7,178 nucleotides of DNA from Synergistaceae bacterium (lineage in GTDB: Bacteria > Synergistota > Synergistia > Synergistales > Synergistaceae): NCBI GenBank assembly GCA_012513245.1, contig JAAZCN010000149.1, positions 1 through 7,178 of the forward strand, given 5' to 3'. Shown one piece after another: positions 451 to 7,178 of this stretch. Position 1 is the stretch's first letter. Each line of letters begins with the position of its first letter. The translations under genes and the position numbers were made by a program. The notes under the pieces were generated by a model that saw nothing but the letters and a program-made list of their open reading frames with translations, made no database searches and had not been told where the DNA came from.

Positions 451-2205
451 ATGTTTGACAGCAATTACACTCTGACGGTTTTTTTGGTATTATTTGTCGC
501 CGTTACATGTATTTTTATACAGAAATTTTTTAAAAAATACCTTGAGAGCGATCAGTACTATTATCTCAAGGACATTACTCTAGTCGCCGCCTGGGCCCTC
601 TGCGGCATCTGGGCGCCTAACAGGCCGTTAAAGATAACTATAGCAGCCGGAGTTGCAGCTGCATGCATAGGTTTCTGTCAAAAGGTCACTAAGGGCAAAA
701 ACCTGAGATTCCTCTACTTTATAGTAGGACTGGGTTTTTCACTATTTGGGCCACGGATAGCCTTTATAGAGTTTGTACCTGGAGAATACTACTACCTCTC
801 ATACTTTGCCTCGATCGCAATAAGTACACTTTGGATCGGTATATTCCCCATCTTATTTCAGGAAATAGATGAGATCCCCGGAATGTGCGGTCTTCTTCTA
901 ACTGTCAGCTGGACACTTGTTTCCGTAGTTATAATGCTCTCATCACAAAATCTACGTGAAGCTGTCCAGCTATGTATAATTGGCATGGTGCTTATACTTG
1001 TATTCTGGAGCAGGCATATCAACGCTTACAGAAGACTGACAGAACCCCTTACGGCTCTTTGGGGAACTCTCTTCGCGGGGCTTTCTATCTTTGGCGTCAG
1101 CAAAGGTGTCGCCTTTTACACTCTTGCCGTTCTGCCGTTAGGACTATTCATGCTCCCTCTCATAGAGACATCCATAAGCGTTGTGAGCGCAGCCTTCTCT
1201 TCTAAGCCTACAGGCAATCTGATACTTTATAGAAAATTTCTAAGCAAAGGTATGGATCATGCGACATCATTCCATACAGTCGTAATGATTTGTGCCTTTA
1301 TTGGCTGTATGGCCGCTTTTATACAGATAGGAGCTGCCAGTTTCCTTGTACTTCTAACTGCAGCTGTTTTTATTTCGACCGTGACCTGGATTTTTTTCAG
1401 ATATGCTTCACGATCAGACAGAAGCCAGTCCAGAAAGCCGGGGCTTTGGGGGATCCGGGTAGACAATATTTCTTTGAATTACGCTATTACACAGGTACAG
1501 CACTGGATAAACAAGGGATCTGCCCATTGCATGATAGTCACTCCTGATGCGCTGGCGGCATTGAGAAGCCGAACAGACGAAAGATACAGAAGGATAGTAA
1601 GAAACGCAGCGCTGGTCCTGCCGGATGGCGCCGGACTTATCGCTGCCCTTAAACTTCTGCACACACCTATACAGGAAAGGATACCCGGAGTTGAATTTAC
1701 AGAGCATATATGCAAGAGAGCATCCTACGAAGGGTGGGGGATCTGGTTCCTGGGAGGTTCACCCGGGATCGCTGAGATCGCAGCTAAAAAACTTGCAGAA
1801 AAATATCCGGGCCTAAATATATCCGGTACACGAAACGGTTACTTCACTAATGAAGAGACAGAGAATATTTGCATGGAGATCCGTGAAAGCAACGCGAAGA
1901 TACTTTTCGTAGGTCTGGGTGTGCCCAGACAGGAATATTGGCTGGAAGAAAACCTCGCAAAATCGGGTGCAACTGTCGGCATGGGAATTGGTGGAACAAT
2001 GGACGTTATCTCAGGGAAATTGGCAAGAGCGCCCCAAATATGGCAGAAATTCTGCCTTGAATGGCTCTACCGTACCATACAGGAGCCATGGCGGTGGCGC
2101 AGAATACTTAAACTCCCGGTATTCGCCTTTTATGTTATCCTGACTGCCCTTCATCTTGACAATTTTAATCCTGATCAACCGGATGAAGAAACAGACATAA
2201 ACTAA
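451..2205 (+). CDS. Membrane-anchored WecG/TagA/CpsF-family (GT26) glycosyltransferase with N-terminal WecA/TagO-like domain
   Basis: The 584-residue protein has two halves. Residues 330-555 are a typical GT26 domain. Visible motifs are TPD at 364-366 (the family usually has TPN), PDGAG at 391-395 holding the likely general-base Asp392, LGG at 434-436, YPGL at 452-455, and VGLGVPRQE at 487-495. GGTMDVISG (514-522), RAP (526-528) and EWLYR..EP.R (537-548) follow. Such enzymes add ManNAc-type sugars to undecaprenyl-diphosphate-GlcNAc in making surface glycans. Residues 1-317 are hydrophobic with many membrane segments. Residues 85-280 line up with TagO by eye but lack its catalytic residues. 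Start: ATG 451 has GGAGG at 435-439. ATG 433 is in frame but has no ribosome site. The extension back to 256 crosses the hairpin region and is unlikely. The sugar and final glycan are not knowable from sequence. No terminator is seen after the stop. Confidence 0.9.
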   Translation: MFDSNYTLTVFLVLFVAVTCIFIQKFFKKYLESDQYYYLKDITLVAAWALCGIWAPNRPLKITIAAGVAAACIGFCQKVTKGKNLRFLYFIVGLGFSLFGPRIAFIEFVPGEYYYLSYFASIAISTLWIGIFPILFQEIDEIPGMCGLLLTVSWTLVSVVIMLSSQNLREAVQLCIIGMVLILVFWSRHINAYRRLTEPLTALWGTLFAGLSIFGVSKGVAFYTLAVLPLGLFMLPLIETSISVVSAAFSSKPTGNLILYRKFLSKGMDHATSFHTVVMICAFIGCMAAFIQIGAASFLVLLTAAVFISTVTWIFFRYASRSDRSQSRKPGLWGIRVDNISLNYAITQVQHWINKGSAHCMIVTPDALAALRSRTDERYRRIVRNAALVLPDGAGLIAALKLLHTPIQERIPGVEFTEHICKRASYEGWGIWFLGGSPGIAEIAAKKLAEKYPGLNISGTRNGYFTNEETENICMEIRESNAKILFVGLGVPRQEYWLEENLAKSGATVGMGIGGTMDVISGKLARAPQIWQKFCLEWLYRTIQEPWRWRRILKLPVFAFYVILTALHLDNFNPDQPDEETDIN

Positions 2206-2354: not shown

Positions 2355-2666
2355 ATGAAAATGGACAAACTCTTGAAGCAGGCACAACGCATGCAGGCTG
2401 AAATGGCGTTAGCACAGGAACAGCTTGCCAATACAGTGGTAGAGGGGGTTTCCGGGGGCGGCATGGTCAAGGCTAAAGTGAACGGAGACGGAGATGTCCT
2501 TTCTATCTCTATCTCTCCTGAAGTCGTTGATCCACAGGATGTCGAAATGCTGGAAGACCTGATCATATCAGCTATCAAAGAAGCGCTCAAACAGAGCAAA
2601 GAAATGGCAAACAGCAAAATGAATTCAATTACCGGGGGAATGGGTGGATTTCCCGGTCTGATGTAA
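2355..2666 (+). CDS. ybaB: YbaB/EbfC family nucleoid-associated protein
   Basis: The 103-residue protein has the family's normal length and layout. A charged N-terminal helix (KMDKLLKQAQRMQAEM) is followed by a small beta region with VKAKVNGDGDVLSISISPE. It ends with a long helix (LEDLIISAIKEALKQSKEM) and a Gly/Met-rich tail (GGMGGFPGLM). Known members form dimers that bind DNA in the nucleoid and are usually encoded beside recR. Here recR starts 7 bases after the stop. The dnaX gene that commonly precedes this pair is absent; a glycosyltransferase gene lies upstream. The start ATG 2355 has AGGAAG 8 bases before it. ATG 2361 is a possible alternative that would shorten the protein by two residues. 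Confidence 0.95.
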   Translation: MKMDKLLKQAQRMQAEMALAQEQLANTVVEGVSGGGMVKAKVNGDGDVLSISISPEVVDPQDVEMLEDLIISAIKEALKQSKEMANSKMNSITGGMGGFPGLM

Positions 2667-2673
2667 CCAGAGA

Positions 2674-3288
2674 ATGTCAGCCACTTCACTGCCCGGTTCA
2701 GTATACAAACTTATAAAACTTTGGAGCAAATTGCCCGGTGTAGGAGAAAAAACTGCCCGCCGAATGGTTTTTTTTATCTTAAAACAGGATAGTAATTGGG
2801 TAAATGAGTTCATCAGCACCATAAAACAGGTAAAAGATGAAACACACCACTGCAACGAATGCGGCAACATAACTGACATAGAACCATGTTCCATTTGCAG
2901 GGACAAAATGAGGAACCGTAAAATATTATGTGTAGTAGAAAGCGATGAGGATTGTATCTCGATAGAACAGGCAGGCATATTCAACGGTCTGTATCATGTT
3001 CTTGGAGGTCAGGTATCGCCTCTCGATGAACAGGACATACCAGAAGAGAGCATCACAAAGTTAAAGGAACGAGTCTACGAATTAAAAATTGAGGAAATTG
3101 TACTTGCGACTGCTCCAAGAATAGAGGGAGACCTCACCGCATTTGCGATCCAGGAAGCACTCAGGGGTATACCCGTTAAAATATCAAGACTCTCATACGG
3201 ACTGCCGGTAGGAGGAAGCATAGGCTATGCAGATAGAGTCACACTGCATATGGCAATGGAATCAAGAAAGGAGATGTCGGAAAAATAA
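2674..3288 (+). CDS. recR: Recombination mediator RecR
   Basis: This 204-residue protein is of normal RecR length. An N-terminal helix-hairpin-helix (LPGVGEKTARRM, 20-31) is followed by a C4 zinc finger with Cys60, Cys63, Cys72 and Cys75. A Toprim domain comes next: CVVES at 86-90, the YHVLGG..SPL region at 107-117, and ATAPRIEGDLTA at 145-156. RecR works with RecF/RecO to load RecA on gapped DNA. The usual ATNPTVEGEATA motif is altered here (N to A, E to D). SPLDG reads SPLDE. The fold signatures are otherwise intact, so function is expected. The start has only a weak ribosome site (AGAGA) and lies 7 bases after the ybaB stop, so translation is probably coupled. An AT-rich 68-base spacer without a terminator separates it from the next gene. 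Confidence 0.96.
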   Translation: MSATSLPGSVYKLIKLWSKLPGVGEKTARRMVFFILKQDSNWVNEFISTIKQVKDETHHCNECGNITDIEPCSICRDKMRNRKILCVVESDEDCISIEQAGIFNGLYHVLGGQVSPLDEQDIPEESITKLKERVYELKIEEIVLATAPRIEGDLTAFAIQEALRGIPVKISRLSYGLPVGGSIGYADRVTLHMAMESRKEMSEK

Positions 3289-3341
3289 AACACAGAGATA
3301 ATCACATCCACCGGGAAATTCAACAACAAAAAAATAATATG

Positions 3342-3348
3342 AAAGGAG
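3342..3348 (+). promoter_or_regulatory. Ribosome binding site fixing the PIN/TRAM gene start
   Basis: AAAGGAG lies 8 bases before ATG 3357, which is ideal spacing. An in-frame ATG at 3339 would place this site inside the coding region and has no site of its own, so 3357 is preferred. Confidence 0.8.
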
Positions 3349-3356
3349 AAAACAAA

Positions 3357-4520
3357 ATGTCGTCAGGATCCGGTCTTTCCACTGTTATGAAAAGATTGGT
3401 CAGAGCGGTGATGGTCTTTATATGCGCAGCTGCCGGCTATCAGATTTCAAAGATAGCCCTAGAGCAGAACTGGTGGCCATCCGTTACACTGCTTCACCCA
3501 ATAGCAACGACCGTATTTATTATTACTGTTTCAGCATGTTTCGGCTTTATCCTTGCACCCATATTCTGGCTAAGCGTAAGAAAATTTGCACAGTTTACAG
3601 AATCCAGACTCCAGAATACGAGCGTACCGGAACTCACAGTGAGCCTGCTTGGCCTGATCCTGGGCCTCTTGCTCGCCAACCTTATCGCTATGCCGATGTC
3701 AAGAATTCCGGGTGGGATAGGGGTATACATTGCGGTACTGCTGAACGTCGCCCTCGGCTATCTAGGTCTGCGCTTCTTCGCAAAGAGAAAAGATGATATT
3801 TGGAGTGTAATAACAAACATCAGTGATATCAGGCTGCGGCTTCCCAAACGTAAAAAGAAAAACGAAAATGGGGAAGAGGAAAAAAATACAGATCTCGAAG
3901 TTGCTCCTGAGTTTTTCTACTCAATACCCAAGATACTTGATACAAGCGCCATAATCGACGGCAGAATATTGGATGTTGCACAAAGCGGTTTCATTGAAGG
4001 AACTATAGTTCTGCCACGCTTCATACTTGCAGAGCTTCAGGGGGTCGCAGACTCAACAGACCCGCTCAGAAGGACTAGAGGGAGGCGCGGCCTGACAGTA
4101 GTAAAAGAACTTCAGAAGATCGCCACCCTTAACATTGAGATCCCTGAAACAACTCTTAAGGATCTTGAAAGAGAAAAGGTAGATGAAGCTTTAGTCGTGC
4201 TTGCACGTCAGCTCAACGGCAAAGTTATCACGACAGACTACAACCTCAATCAGATCGCCCAGATCGAGGGAGTTTCTGTCCTTAACGTAAACGACCTGGC
4301 AAACTCTCTCAAACCTATGCTCCTCCCCGGTGAGAACGTAGAAATAGACATAATACGCATTGGAAAAGAGTCCCATCAGGGCGTTGGCTACCTTGATGAC
4401 GGAACCATGCTTGTTGTCGAAGACGGTTATAAACGTATAGGAGAAAGAGTCAAAGTCACAGTTACTTCAATGCTTCAGACGTCGGCCGGAAGAATGGTCT
4501 TCGGAAGAATACGCCCCTAA
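3357..4520 (+). CDS. Membrane-anchored PIN/TRAM domain protein (YacL type), putative nuclease
   Basis: The 387-residue protein starts with four likely membrane segments (about 14-35, 47-72, 93-112, 119-142). A basic, low-complexity linker follows (163-176, KRKKK then acidic NGEEE). A PIN nuclease domain covers about 190-318: LDTSAIIDGRI with Asp195 and Asp201, AELQ with Glu226, the RRTRGRRGL stretch (238-246), VDEAL with Asp276, and TTDYNLN with Asp294. The acidic metal-binding set is therefore complete. A C-terminal TRAM RNA-binding domain covers about 320-387. This matches Bacillus subtilis YacL, whose cellular role is poorly defined. In Firmicutes yacL also precedes ispD and ispF, as here. 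The active domain should face the cytoplasm. RNA cleavage is inferred from the family, not shown. Confidence 0.9.
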   Translation: MSSGSGLSTVMKRLVRAVMVFICAAAGYQISKIALEQNWWPSVTLLHPIATTVFIITVSACFGFILAPIFWLSVRKFAQFTESRLQNTSVPELTVSLLGLILGLLLANLIAMPMSRIPGGIGVYIAVLLNVALGYLGLRFFAKRKDDIWSVITNISDIRLRLPKRKKKNENGEEEKNTDLEVAPEFFYSIPKILDTSAIIDGRILDVAQSGFIEGTIVLPRFILAELQGVADSTDPLRRTRGRRGLTVVKELQKIATLNIEIPETTLKDLEREKVDEALVVLARQLNGKVITTDYNLNQIAQIEGVSVLNVNDLANSLKPMLLPGENVEIDIIRIGKESHQGVGYLDDGTMLVVEDGYKRIGERVKVTVTSMLQTSAGRMVFGRIRP

Positions 4521-4521
4521 A

Positions 4522-5685
4522 ATGAAAAGAGAGACCTGGTCCTTCATAATAGTTGCAGGAGGGGCAGGAACTCGCCTTGGCGGGACTCCGAAACAATTCA
4601 GGCTTCTTGATGGCTGTCCGGTCTGGAAATGGTCTGCTAAAATTGCAGAAGAGTTATGGAAAGACGGGGCAACAGAAGAACTTGTAATTGTCGTTCCGGA
4701 GGAGCATATGGCAGAAGTAGAGAGGCAGTGTGACCTAAAGATCCCAATACGACTTGCCGCCGGAGGAACCACAAGATCTCAGTCAGTAATGAACGGATTA
4801 AAGAATTCATGCGGGTCTCACGTGCTGGTGCACGATGCGGCCCGCCCTTTTATAACAAAAGAACTTTGCCTCGAACTTATAAAAAACACTGCCATACACG
4901 GATCTTCTATTCCCCTTATTGGATCCAGTGATTCTCTAAAAAAAATAGAAAGAGGAAAGATGACCTGTGTGGATAGAAAAGAATACCTCAGGACTCAAAC
5001 TCCTCAGGCATTTGAAAAAGCACCCTTAATAGAGGCCATAAAATCATTTGGATTTGAAGGTACTGATGAAGCCGCTGCCTGGATCGCTTCAGGAAGGGAT
5101 ATCTTCTGCACGGAAGGACCTGAATCAAATTTTAAGATCACAACGAATTTTGACTGGGACGTTGCCTCTTTAGTGACCGGAGGCAGAAAGATACAAAGGA
5201 CAGGGCACGGATTTGACGTACATCAGCTTGTACGGGGAAGAAAACTAATACTTGCCGGTATTGAAATAAGAAATACCGAATTTGGACTCTTTGGCCATTC
5301 TGATGCGGATATAGTTCTTCATACAGCAATGGACGCACTGCTTGGAGCTGCAGGGTTACCTGATATCGGGACCCTCTTTCCTGCGTCAGATGCAAAATGG
5401 AAGGATGCGGACAGTCGGGAACTACTTAAAATTGTTATCCGTAAAATCAGAGCAGAGGGATGGAATATTGACTGGGTGGATGTTACTTTGCAGGCACAGT
5501 CTCCTAAGCTGGGGCATTTGATACCGAGCTTTATATCAAACGTATCCTCTTTTATTGCTGAAAATAAGAGCGAAACAAATTTCAACATGAAGGTAAAATC
5601 GGGCGAGAGCTGTGGTTCTGTCGGGCGTAATGAATGTATGCTCTGCCATGGAGTTGCAACGCTCTCAAAATACAATTGGAATTAA
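4522..5685 (+). CDS. ispDF: Bifunctional IspD-IspF: MEP cytidylyltransferase / MEcPP synthase
   Basis: One unbroken 387-residue frame holds both enzymes. Residues 1-222 are IspD, which joins CTP and MEP. Visible are the nucleotide loop AGGAGTRLGGTPKQF (12-26), VHDAARPF (103-110), RTQTPQAF (157-164), TDEAA (181-185) and the NFKITT region with Lys205. Residues 224-387 are IspF, which cyclises CDP-ME 2-phosphate. It has RTGHGFDVH with metal ligands Asp232 and His234, GHSDADIVLH with His267, GLPDIGTLFP (278-287) and QAQSPKLGHLIP (324-335). The linker is only a few residues. The IspF C-terminal motif, usually KATTTE..G..GRGEG, reads KVKSGESCGSVGRNEC, with Glu362 and Arg369 kept but the threonines gone. 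The gene begins 1 base after the previous stop (TAA-A-ATG) with no strong ribosome site of its own, so translation is probably coupled. The intermediate CDP-ME must still be phosphorylated by IspE, encoded elsewhere. Confidence 0.95.
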   Translation: MKRETWSFIIVAGGAGTRLGGTPKQFRLLDGCPVWKWSAKIAEELWKDGATEELVIVVPEEHMAEVERQCDLKIPIRLAAGGTTRSQSVMNGLKNSCGSHVLVHDAARPFITKELCLELIKNTAIHGSSIPLIGSSDSLKKIERGKMTCVDRKEYLRTQTPQAFEKAPLIEAIKSFGFEGTDEAAAWIASGRDIFCTEGPESNFKITTNFDWDVASLVTGGRKIQRTGHGFDVHQLVRGRKLILAGIEIRNTEFGLFGHSDADIVLHTAMDALLGAAGLPDIGTLFPASDAKWKDADSRELLKIVIRKIRAEGWNIDWVDVTLQAQSPKLGHLIPSFISNVSSFIAENKSETNFNMKVKSGESCGSVGRNECMLCHGVATLSKYNWN

Positions 5686-5752
5686 GGCTGTGCATTTATA
5701 AGACAAGACCTGAAATCAGCCTGAACATATATTCTTAAACGGAGGCATCGAT
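5686..5752 (+). promoter_or_regulatory. Short ispDF-guaB spacer with possible weak promoter
   Basis: The 67-base gap holds a -10-like TATAAG (5697-5702) with TTGGAA (5676-5681) 15 bases upstream, a poor match and spacing. TATATT (5728-5733) is another isolated -10-like hexamer. GGAGG (5741-5745) is an ideal ribosome site for guaB, 7 bases before its ATG. There is no room for a purine riboswitch and no terminator hairpin with a T-tract. Read-through from ispDF is plausible. Confidence 0.3.
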
Positions 5753-7178
5753 ATGACAAAAAAGAGATCCGAAGAAAAATTTGTTGAATACAGGGGCTTC
5801 ACATTCGACGACGTACTGCTAGTCCCGGGATACAGCGAAGTTGTTCCTTCACAGGTAGACGTCTCAACAAAACTAACACCACAGATCTCCCTCAATATAC
5901 CCCTTTGCAGCGCAGCAATGGATACTGTAACAGAGGGTAGACTGGCTATAGCTATTGCTCGTGAGGGAGGAATGGGCATACTTCACAGAAACCTGTCTAT
6001 CGAAAAACAGGCTGTCGAAGTTGACAAGGTAAAGAGATCTGAATCAGGCGTCATAGTTGATCCGTTCTATCGCCATCCGGAAGATATGGTTAGAGAGGCT
6101 GTAGGGCTTATGGAGCACTATCACATCTCGGGAGTACCTGTCGTGGACAAAGACCTAAGACTTGTTGGAATAATTACAAACAGAGACCTCAGGTTCGTCA
6201 CAAATCTTGACCAGCCAATATCGAATGTTATGACGAAAGAAAACCTTATAACAGCTCCTCTGGGAACAACACTTGAAGACGCAAAGACGATCCTTATGGG
6301 TACAAAAGTAGAAAAGCTGCCTATAGTGGACAAGGACGGCAAACTCAAAGGACTTATCACCATTAAAGACATCCTGAAAGCCAGAGCCTTTCCTAATTCA
6401 ACAAAAGATTCAAGAGGCCGTCTGCGTGTCGGAGCAGCCATAGGTGTTGGTGCTGATGCTTTTGACAGAGCATCAGCTCTTGTCAAAGCCGGAGTAGACA
6501 CTCTCATTGTTGACACAGCACACGGACATTCAAAAATGGTCATAGATACGGTGGCCAGGCTCAGACAATTGTATCCGGACCTGCCCCTTATCGCCGGGAA
6601 CATTGCGACCGCAAGTGCAGCGGAAGCTCTTATGGATGCAGGAGCTGACGCAGTCAAGGTCGGAATAGGCCCGGGATCGATATGCACCACACGTATAGTC
6701 GCAGGGATCGGCGTACCTCAGGTGGCAGCGGTAATGAATGTTTCCGAGGCTGTCCATAAGAGAGGCAAGATAGTAATCGCAGACGGCGGGATCAGATATT
6801 CCGGAGACATCGTAAAAGCTCTTGCCGCCGGTGCTGACGTCGTCATGATCGGATCACTTTTTGCAGGCACAGAAGAAAGTCCCGGAGAAGAAGTAATATA
6901 CAGAGGCCGTTCATTTAAGAGCTACAGGGGAATGGGATCACTGGGAGCAATGAAAGGCGGCTGCAGCAAGGACAGATATTTCCAGGAAGGCACGACAGAA
7001 GACAAACTAGTCCCGGAAGGCATAGAGGGAATGGTAGCACACAAAGGATCGATCTCAGGGGTCGTCTATCAGATGGTCGGCGGTATTCGTTCCGGAATGG
7101 GTTACGTCGGGGCACCTAACATCCACTCACTTCACGAAGATTCAAAGTTCGTACAGGTGACTGCGGCATCAATAAAGG
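5753..7178 (+). CDS. guaB: IMP dehydrogenase (3' end cut by window edge)
   Basis: The frame is open from ATG 5753 to the last base, 475 codons. Family members are about 485-490 residues, so only about a dozen are missing. GuaB oxidises IMP to XMP with NAD+, the first step from IMP to GMP. Visible are the N-terminal [13 protein letters not shown] (16-28), AAMDTVTE (54-61), and two CBS domains at about 98-150 and 158-212 that regulate the enzyme through adenine and guanine nucleotides in relatives. The catalytic loop GPGSICTTR has Cys311. [20 protein letters not shown] (341-360), the IMP-binding [10 protein letters not shown] (391-400), the flap region DRYFQ (406-410) and PEGIEG (420-425) follow. 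Every core motif is intact. GGAGG lies 7 bases before the start. It may be co-transcribed with ispDF, but the two pathways are unrelated, so adjacency says little. Confidence 0.97.

Follow-up and report, generated by a model that had tools for sequence, protein, structure and literature searches.

A phylum-wide fusion of a WecA/TagO-like membrane half lacking catalytic motifs with a GT26 glycosyltransferase in Synergistota

The fusion gene and its two halves

The 7,178-nucleotide stretch of Synergistaceae bacterium contig JAAZCN010000149.1 (assembly GCA_012513245.1) analyzed here, called the window in the following, carries a gene at 451..2205 that joins a hydrophobic N-terminal half to a GT26 glycosyltransferase. 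Its ATG at 451 is preceded by a Shine-Dalgarno-like GGAGG, and frames in six Synergistaceae bacterium contigs share 86-91% identity with the deduced protein. An initial annotation had placed an open reading frame with a hydrophobic and a GT26 half here, with which both the translation and Pfam agree. It had further proposed that a TagO-type and a TagA-type enzyme were fused in an ancestor and that the first half then lost catalysis, and this is borne out by the predicted fold, profile comparisons, PF00953 matches of basal members and motif counts. The N-terminal half is almost certainly a pseudo-TagO fused to an active-looking GT26 enzyme. The gene is laid out as follows:

451..2205, + strand: complete fusion gene, 584 aa, with a pseudo-WecA/TagO half followed by a GT26 half
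451..1416, + strand: N-terminal half, residues 1-322, with the MraY/WecA fold and, after it, an 11th helix
763..795, + strand: beta hairpin, residues 105-115, between helices 4 and 5 (DSSP on the predicted model)
1333..1416, + strand: 11th helix of the model, residues 295-322, past the region matched to MraY and DPAGT1, which ends at 293-299
1444..2142, + strand: GT26 glycosyltransferase half, residues 332-564

PF03808 is the sole Pfam domain found in the window protein (residues 386-552, E 1.5e-61, 207.6 bits, cut-off 27.4), and TIGR00696 scores 172.8 bits (cut-off 69). The GT26 half aligns with Thermoanaerobacter italicus TagA including its C-terminal appendage (E 2.1e-52, residues 332-564). 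Conservation was followed in 83 fusions, namely the window protein, 64 loci and 18 chosen proteins; ten loci of L029-L102 were left out since they show no fusion frame by motif pattern. The alignment yields these counterparts:

1540..1542, + strand: T364, equivalent to T37 of TagA, invariant in the 83 fusions
1624..1626, + strand: D392, equivalent to D65 of TagA, the proposed catalytic base, invariant in the 83 fusions
2017..2148, + strand: C-terminal appendage, with R541, R548 and R551 equivalent to R214, R221 and R224 of TagA; R541 and R548 invariant in the 83 fusions

In TagA, according to the accessible part of its description (PMC6493773), D65 is proposed to act as the base, T37 may serve to position the donor, and R221 is contributed by the appendage. 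TagA has an Asn two places after T37, where the window fusion has D366. With the catalytic residues present, the GT26 half is active-looking as far as its sequence goes.

Descent and disabled motifs of the N-terminal half

Residues 1-299 are predicted to adopt the MraY/DPAGT1 superfamily fold (predicted model, Foldseek, VIA-align), which they share with the solved structures of MraY and DPAGT1. The beta hairpin is a mark of the WecA/MraY superfamily, and its start GPRIAFI is aligned with GPRIEFI of the standalone PF00953 protein P0127. In the model, the 11th helix places the C-terminus of this half in the cytosol; WecA likewise has 11 helices and a cytosolic C-terminus, so that helix number and orientation join fold and profile relationship among the features shared with WecA/TagO.

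Pfam gave no PF00953 match for the whole window protein or residues 1-330 at a limit of E 10, although the HMMER filters discard most matches above about E 0.1 despite this limit. The initial annotation had regarded a missing PF00953 match combined with another fold as the sign of an unrelated anchor; the first part holds for the window sequence, not for basal members, and the fold is that of MraY/WecA. The resemblance to WecA/TagO that it had noted goes beyond chance. By hhalign, whose E-values are those of a single comparison, 80 in-group N-terminal halves without basal rows match 33 standalone proteins with Prob 98.8% (E 8e-17, 238 columns), three basal rows match standalone PF00953 proteins with Prob 99.8%, and reversed-profile controls reach 0.1-1.0%. 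A profile of 12 N-terminal halves, searched against 5.8 billion sequences, reached the intact-motif PF00953 protein P0190 at E 3.1e-5, the only match outside the fusion family among the 120 matches listed. Six short N-half proteins without PF03808 from this search were examined and seem truncated or frameshifted (P0182 and P0183 are not among the six).

Basal members connect the family directly to standalone enzymes. The N-terminal half of L101 finds standalone PF00953 proteins, P0127 being the best (E 1.0e-21), and of its 47 matches, six are fusions (P0121-P0126), while 41 lack PF03808. L101 and P0121 both carry PF00953 and PF03808 according to Pfam. In basal G011-G013, PF00953 reaches 27.0-41.5 bits (cut-off 27) in GT26 frames of 585-593 aa, which have no match to the window N-terminal half, and it does the same in truncated frames of G010 and G014. 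In a tree with 33 of the 41 non-fusion matches (under 420 aa), also used for the hhalign alignment, the fusions form one group (100/99), with 11 derived rows on a very long stem of 2.78 changes per column. Because of long-branch and composition warnings, we claim only the grouping of the fusions from this tree. Descent from MraY was considered and rejected: similarity to the relatives' own MraY is weak by hhalign (0.2-13.2%), and the fusions stand apart from it in the tree.

The positions that define the catalysts are altered in the window protein. The following replacements were read from the joint alignment of fusions and standalone proteins, that of E239 from alignments:

679..684, + strand: Q77-K78 in place of the DD motif
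859..882, + strand: QEIDEIPG (137-144) in place of NxxDGxDG, D140 (868-870) and G144 kept
1039..1053, + strand: TEPLT (197-201) in place of GDxGS, the first Gly not kept here
1165..1167, + strand: E239 in place of the Asp of VPxxDT
1222..1233, + strand: ILYR (258-261) in place of HxHH, Y260 invariant

Of the motifs DD, NxxDGxDG, GDxGS and HxHH, nothing is thus left in the window protein except D140 and G144, the initial Asp and the final Gly of DGxDG. The initial annotation had read the changes from GDTGS to TEPLT and from DT to ET correctly. It had taken the DGLDG site as changed, which is right for the second Asp, while the first is kept (D140; NFIDGIDG of P0128 against QEIDEIPG). It did not mention the DD motif, and it had matched HIMHR to HATSFH, a later stretch than ILYR, the actual counterpart of the histidine motif.

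Motifs were counted in 89 fusions (the 83 plus P0121-P0126; 88 distinct, one N-terminal half occurring twice as L101 and P0121) and in 31 standalone proteins, those among the 41 non-fusion matches that are under 420 aa and numbered up to P0165. Both Asp of DD occur in none of the fusions (first Asp in one, second in one) and in all 31 standalone proteins. The Asn of NxxDGxDG is found in 1/89 against 30/31, with Gln in 63 fusions, and the second Asp of DGxDG in 0/89 against 29/31, with Pro in 76. For GDxGS, the Asp is present in 4/89 fusions, three of them among the nine basal rows (Glu in 52/89), versus 30/31 standalone proteins; its first Gly occurs in 53 and its second in none of the fusions, each being present in 31/31. 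Both outer His of HxHH are found in 0/89 (first in one, last in five) versus 31/31. Three positions are fixed in all 89 fusions: the first Asp (D140) and last Gly (G144) of DGxDG, common to the 31 standalone proteins as well, and a Tyr between the outer His (Y260), present in a single standalone protein.

All nine basal rows are disabled in the same way as the other fusions, so that, on the simplest reading, catalysis was lost before the lineages split. The six fusions of the L101 search are disabled too, and this search, in which only the 7996 candidates sharing most words were scored, revealed no TagO-TagA type fusion with intact first-half motifs, a homologue for which the initial annotation had suggested a search; such a fusion may still occur in another phylum. 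WecA/TagO keeps DD, the second Asp of DGxDG, GDxGS and HxHH; the fusion is without these and is joined to GT26.

Calling this half decayed, as was done initially, is nevertheless misleading. Averaged over positions in 59 proteins, the most frequent residue accounts for 71% of the sequences in residues 24-270 and for 72% in 331-562, against 42% in the intervening 271-330. Among seven close relatives (21 pairs), the median dN is lowest in residues 1-270 (0.036), intermediate in 331-562 (0.081) and highest in 271-330 (0.154). Median dN/dS values are 0.022 (7 of 21 pairs usable), 0.084 (11/21) and 0.053 (9/21) for N-terminal half, linker and GT26 half, respectively, but dS is often saturated and the ratios are shaky, and we therefore rely on dN. 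Within the cytosolic loops, single residues stand out: D140, G144 and Y260 are found in 83/83 fusions, and R188, Y193 and H270 in 96%. Judged by its sequences, the N-terminal half is not decaying: it is conserved like the GT26 half and has a lower dN.

Distribution in Synergistota and pathway context

Of 185 Synergistota genomes, 170 contain relatives of the window N-terminal half. Among the 150 N-half matches listed, 147 lie in open frames of at least 560 aa, the others measuring 389, 348 and 284 aa. PF03808 is found in 173/185 genomes, as a single copy in 168 of these. An apparent split in G183 contains an unread base (X). Genome G016 has a second, unfused GT26 gene (L129) beside a sugar transferase and a GDP-mannose dehydratase-like gene (names by eye), which looks like an ordinary polysaccharide-cluster gene.

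Both L002 and basal L101 have serS upstream of the fusion, in L101 separated from it by one further gene (gene names by eye). This common gene order argues for one old locus. The basal intervening gene encodes a protein of 253-254 aa in opposite direction (L101:5732-6493, +; L110:391-1155, -). The end of serS in L002 lies some 140 bases ahead of the fusion, and no such gene end is seen in the window, so bases 1-359 may represent an insertion, a rearrangement or an assembly join. Within the first 470 bases, only about 360-470 match relatives (12 rows, i.e., six close relatives, each twice). Downstream, 2355-7177 holds genes for YbaB/EbfC, RecR, a PIN-TRAM protein, a fused IspD-IspF and IMP dehydrogenase, the last truncated where the window stops.

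Of the 185 genomes, 164 have two or more PF00953 matches, 18 have one and three have none; in basal genomes, the fusion itself accounts for one of the matches. Nine of nine relatives' genomes checked encode a short PF00953 protein in addition to MraY. MraY adjoins a MurF-like gene in L021, while the short TagO, an open frame of 292-333 aa, adjoins a UDP-GlcNAc 2-epimerase-like gene in L026 (names by eye). PF02350 is present in 12/12 genomes, and in each of them its best match is, by coordinates, a same-strand neighbor of the short TagO. Thirteen short TagO frames, picked by GDxGS-type and HxHH motifs and hence not blindly (L118, at a contig end, left out), all have DD, GDxGS or GDxGA, and HxHH, and ten have DGxDG. 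The remaining three, L115, L116 and L117 from three Synergistota genomes, show DGxNG instead. The separate active-type TagO asked for by the initial annotation is thus found with intact motifs, based on the relatives' genomes rather than that of the window.

Possible roles of the membrane half

We slightly favor the statement that the protein is a GT26 enzyme built into the membrane, whose WecA/TagO-derived pseudoenzyme half holds the lipid for the GT26 domain. Taken alone, the holding of lipid-linked GlcNAc falls somewhat short of probable. In such a mechanism, the short TagO would make polyprenyl-diphosphate-GlcNAc and WecB would supply UDP-ManNAc; ManNAc as the donor is inferred from TagA and the wecB-like gene. 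The polyprenyl-phosphate groove may survive in the modeled fold of the dead half, together with a remodeled cytosolic pocket that would comprise D140, Y260 and basic residues around the former DD and GDxGS sites. The diphosphate could be held without metal, as DD has mostly become Gln plus Lys, Arg or His, and R188 and R194 lie in the loop before the old GDxGS. The held lipid would present its GlcNAc to the adjacent, fixed GT26 domain, which would add the next cell-envelope sugar, and the built-in anchor would replace the membrane-triggered switch of soluble TagA.

Several observations weigh against this proposal. Single motif residues survive in some fusions, though a whole motif in none. An N-out/C-in topology is consistent with the Lys and Arg counts per loop except for loop 5, the acidic loop at the DGxDG site, which departs from the positive-inside rule. 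Donor and acceptor of the GT26 half are not fixed by sequence, since it scores below the equivalog cut-offs of both TarA (NF041710, 166.4 bits, cut-off 350) and WecG (NF002980, 141.6 bits, cut-off 323). Finally, conservation in the cytosolic loops of the N-terminal half does not significantly exceed that of its remainder (difference 0.042, reached by 58 of 264 circular shifts), and a conserved pocket is therefore not favored over general structural constraint.

The same loop result suits a mere membrane anchor, for which any multi-helix domain would suffice, as does the dependence of TagA activity on the membrane, to which the enzyme otherwise binds only peripherally (PMC6493773, as far as available). 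Such an anchor is unlikely, however, given the constraint on this half: its median dN is below that of the catalytic half, the polar D140 and Y260 are kept throughout the fusions, and the C-terminal membrane appendage of TagA is retained in addition. It is likewise unlikely that the half, rather than a passive relic, is a new kind of lipid-handling module, in which the polytopic phosphoglycosyltransferase fold has become a metal-independent carrier-lipid chaperone or a new catalyst for polyprenyl diphosphates, remodeled where the main Synergistota lineage began and fixed ever since. It is rather unlikely that the dead half pairs with the short TagO in a mixed dimer, in which lipid passes between the first and second enzymes of the pathway; MraY-type enzymes do form dimers, and the short gene is at hand beside the wecB-like gene in the relatives' genomes, but it does not neighbor the fusion, which lies near serS, and the resemblance between the two proteins is remote (hhalign 61% in-group, 97% basal). 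Pseudoenzymes often turn regulatory, and D140 of the old active site is retained, as would suit a sensor of polyprenyl phosphate or a UDP-sugar that switches GT26 on or off; with most old motif residues gone, we regard this as quite improbable. A chance likeness between unrelated membrane helices, suggested by the missing PF00953 match of the window protein under filters that drop most weak matches, was rejected and is taken as refuted by the predicted fold, hhalign with its reversed controls, the profile search and the basal PF00953 matches.

Polytopic phosphoglycosyltransferases are known as catalysts, and in the open-access literature we found neither this fusion nor a catalytically dead WecA/MraY superfamily protein described. 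Both domains belong to known families; the novelty lies in the dead half and in its having become fixed throughout the phylum. A different combination is seen in P0133, P0136, P0137 and P0140, proteins of 827 aa with PF13727, PF00953 and PF02397, which combine both phosphoglycosyltransferase types, polytopic and monotopic, in a single polypeptide, the polytopic motifs being present. The fused FAD synthetase of plants is soluble, with unrelated folds, and belongs to another pathway. It resembles the present case, in the available part of its description (PMC9678776), in that an active enzyme is joined to a disabled one, an inactivated FAD pyrophosphatase, acting on related compounds. T. italicus TagA (PDB 7mpk, 7n41, 5wb4, 5wfg) is peripheral, whereas the window enzyme is tied to 11 membrane helices. 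The accessible account of TagA (PMC6493773) has the appendage tether this peripheral enzyme, which is proposed to toggle between a soluble dimer, thought inactive, and a membrane monomer.

A membrane-fixed GT26 enzyme offers a counterpart for testing this membrane-switch model. As a constrained, phylum-wide dead member fused to the next enzyme of what seems to be its own pathway, the protein would be a natural test of the hand-over of lipid-linked sugars from one membrane enzyme to the next, and of the uses that the WecA/MraY fold has once catalysis is lost. In Synergistota, a retired enzyme seems to act as a built-in membrane platform.
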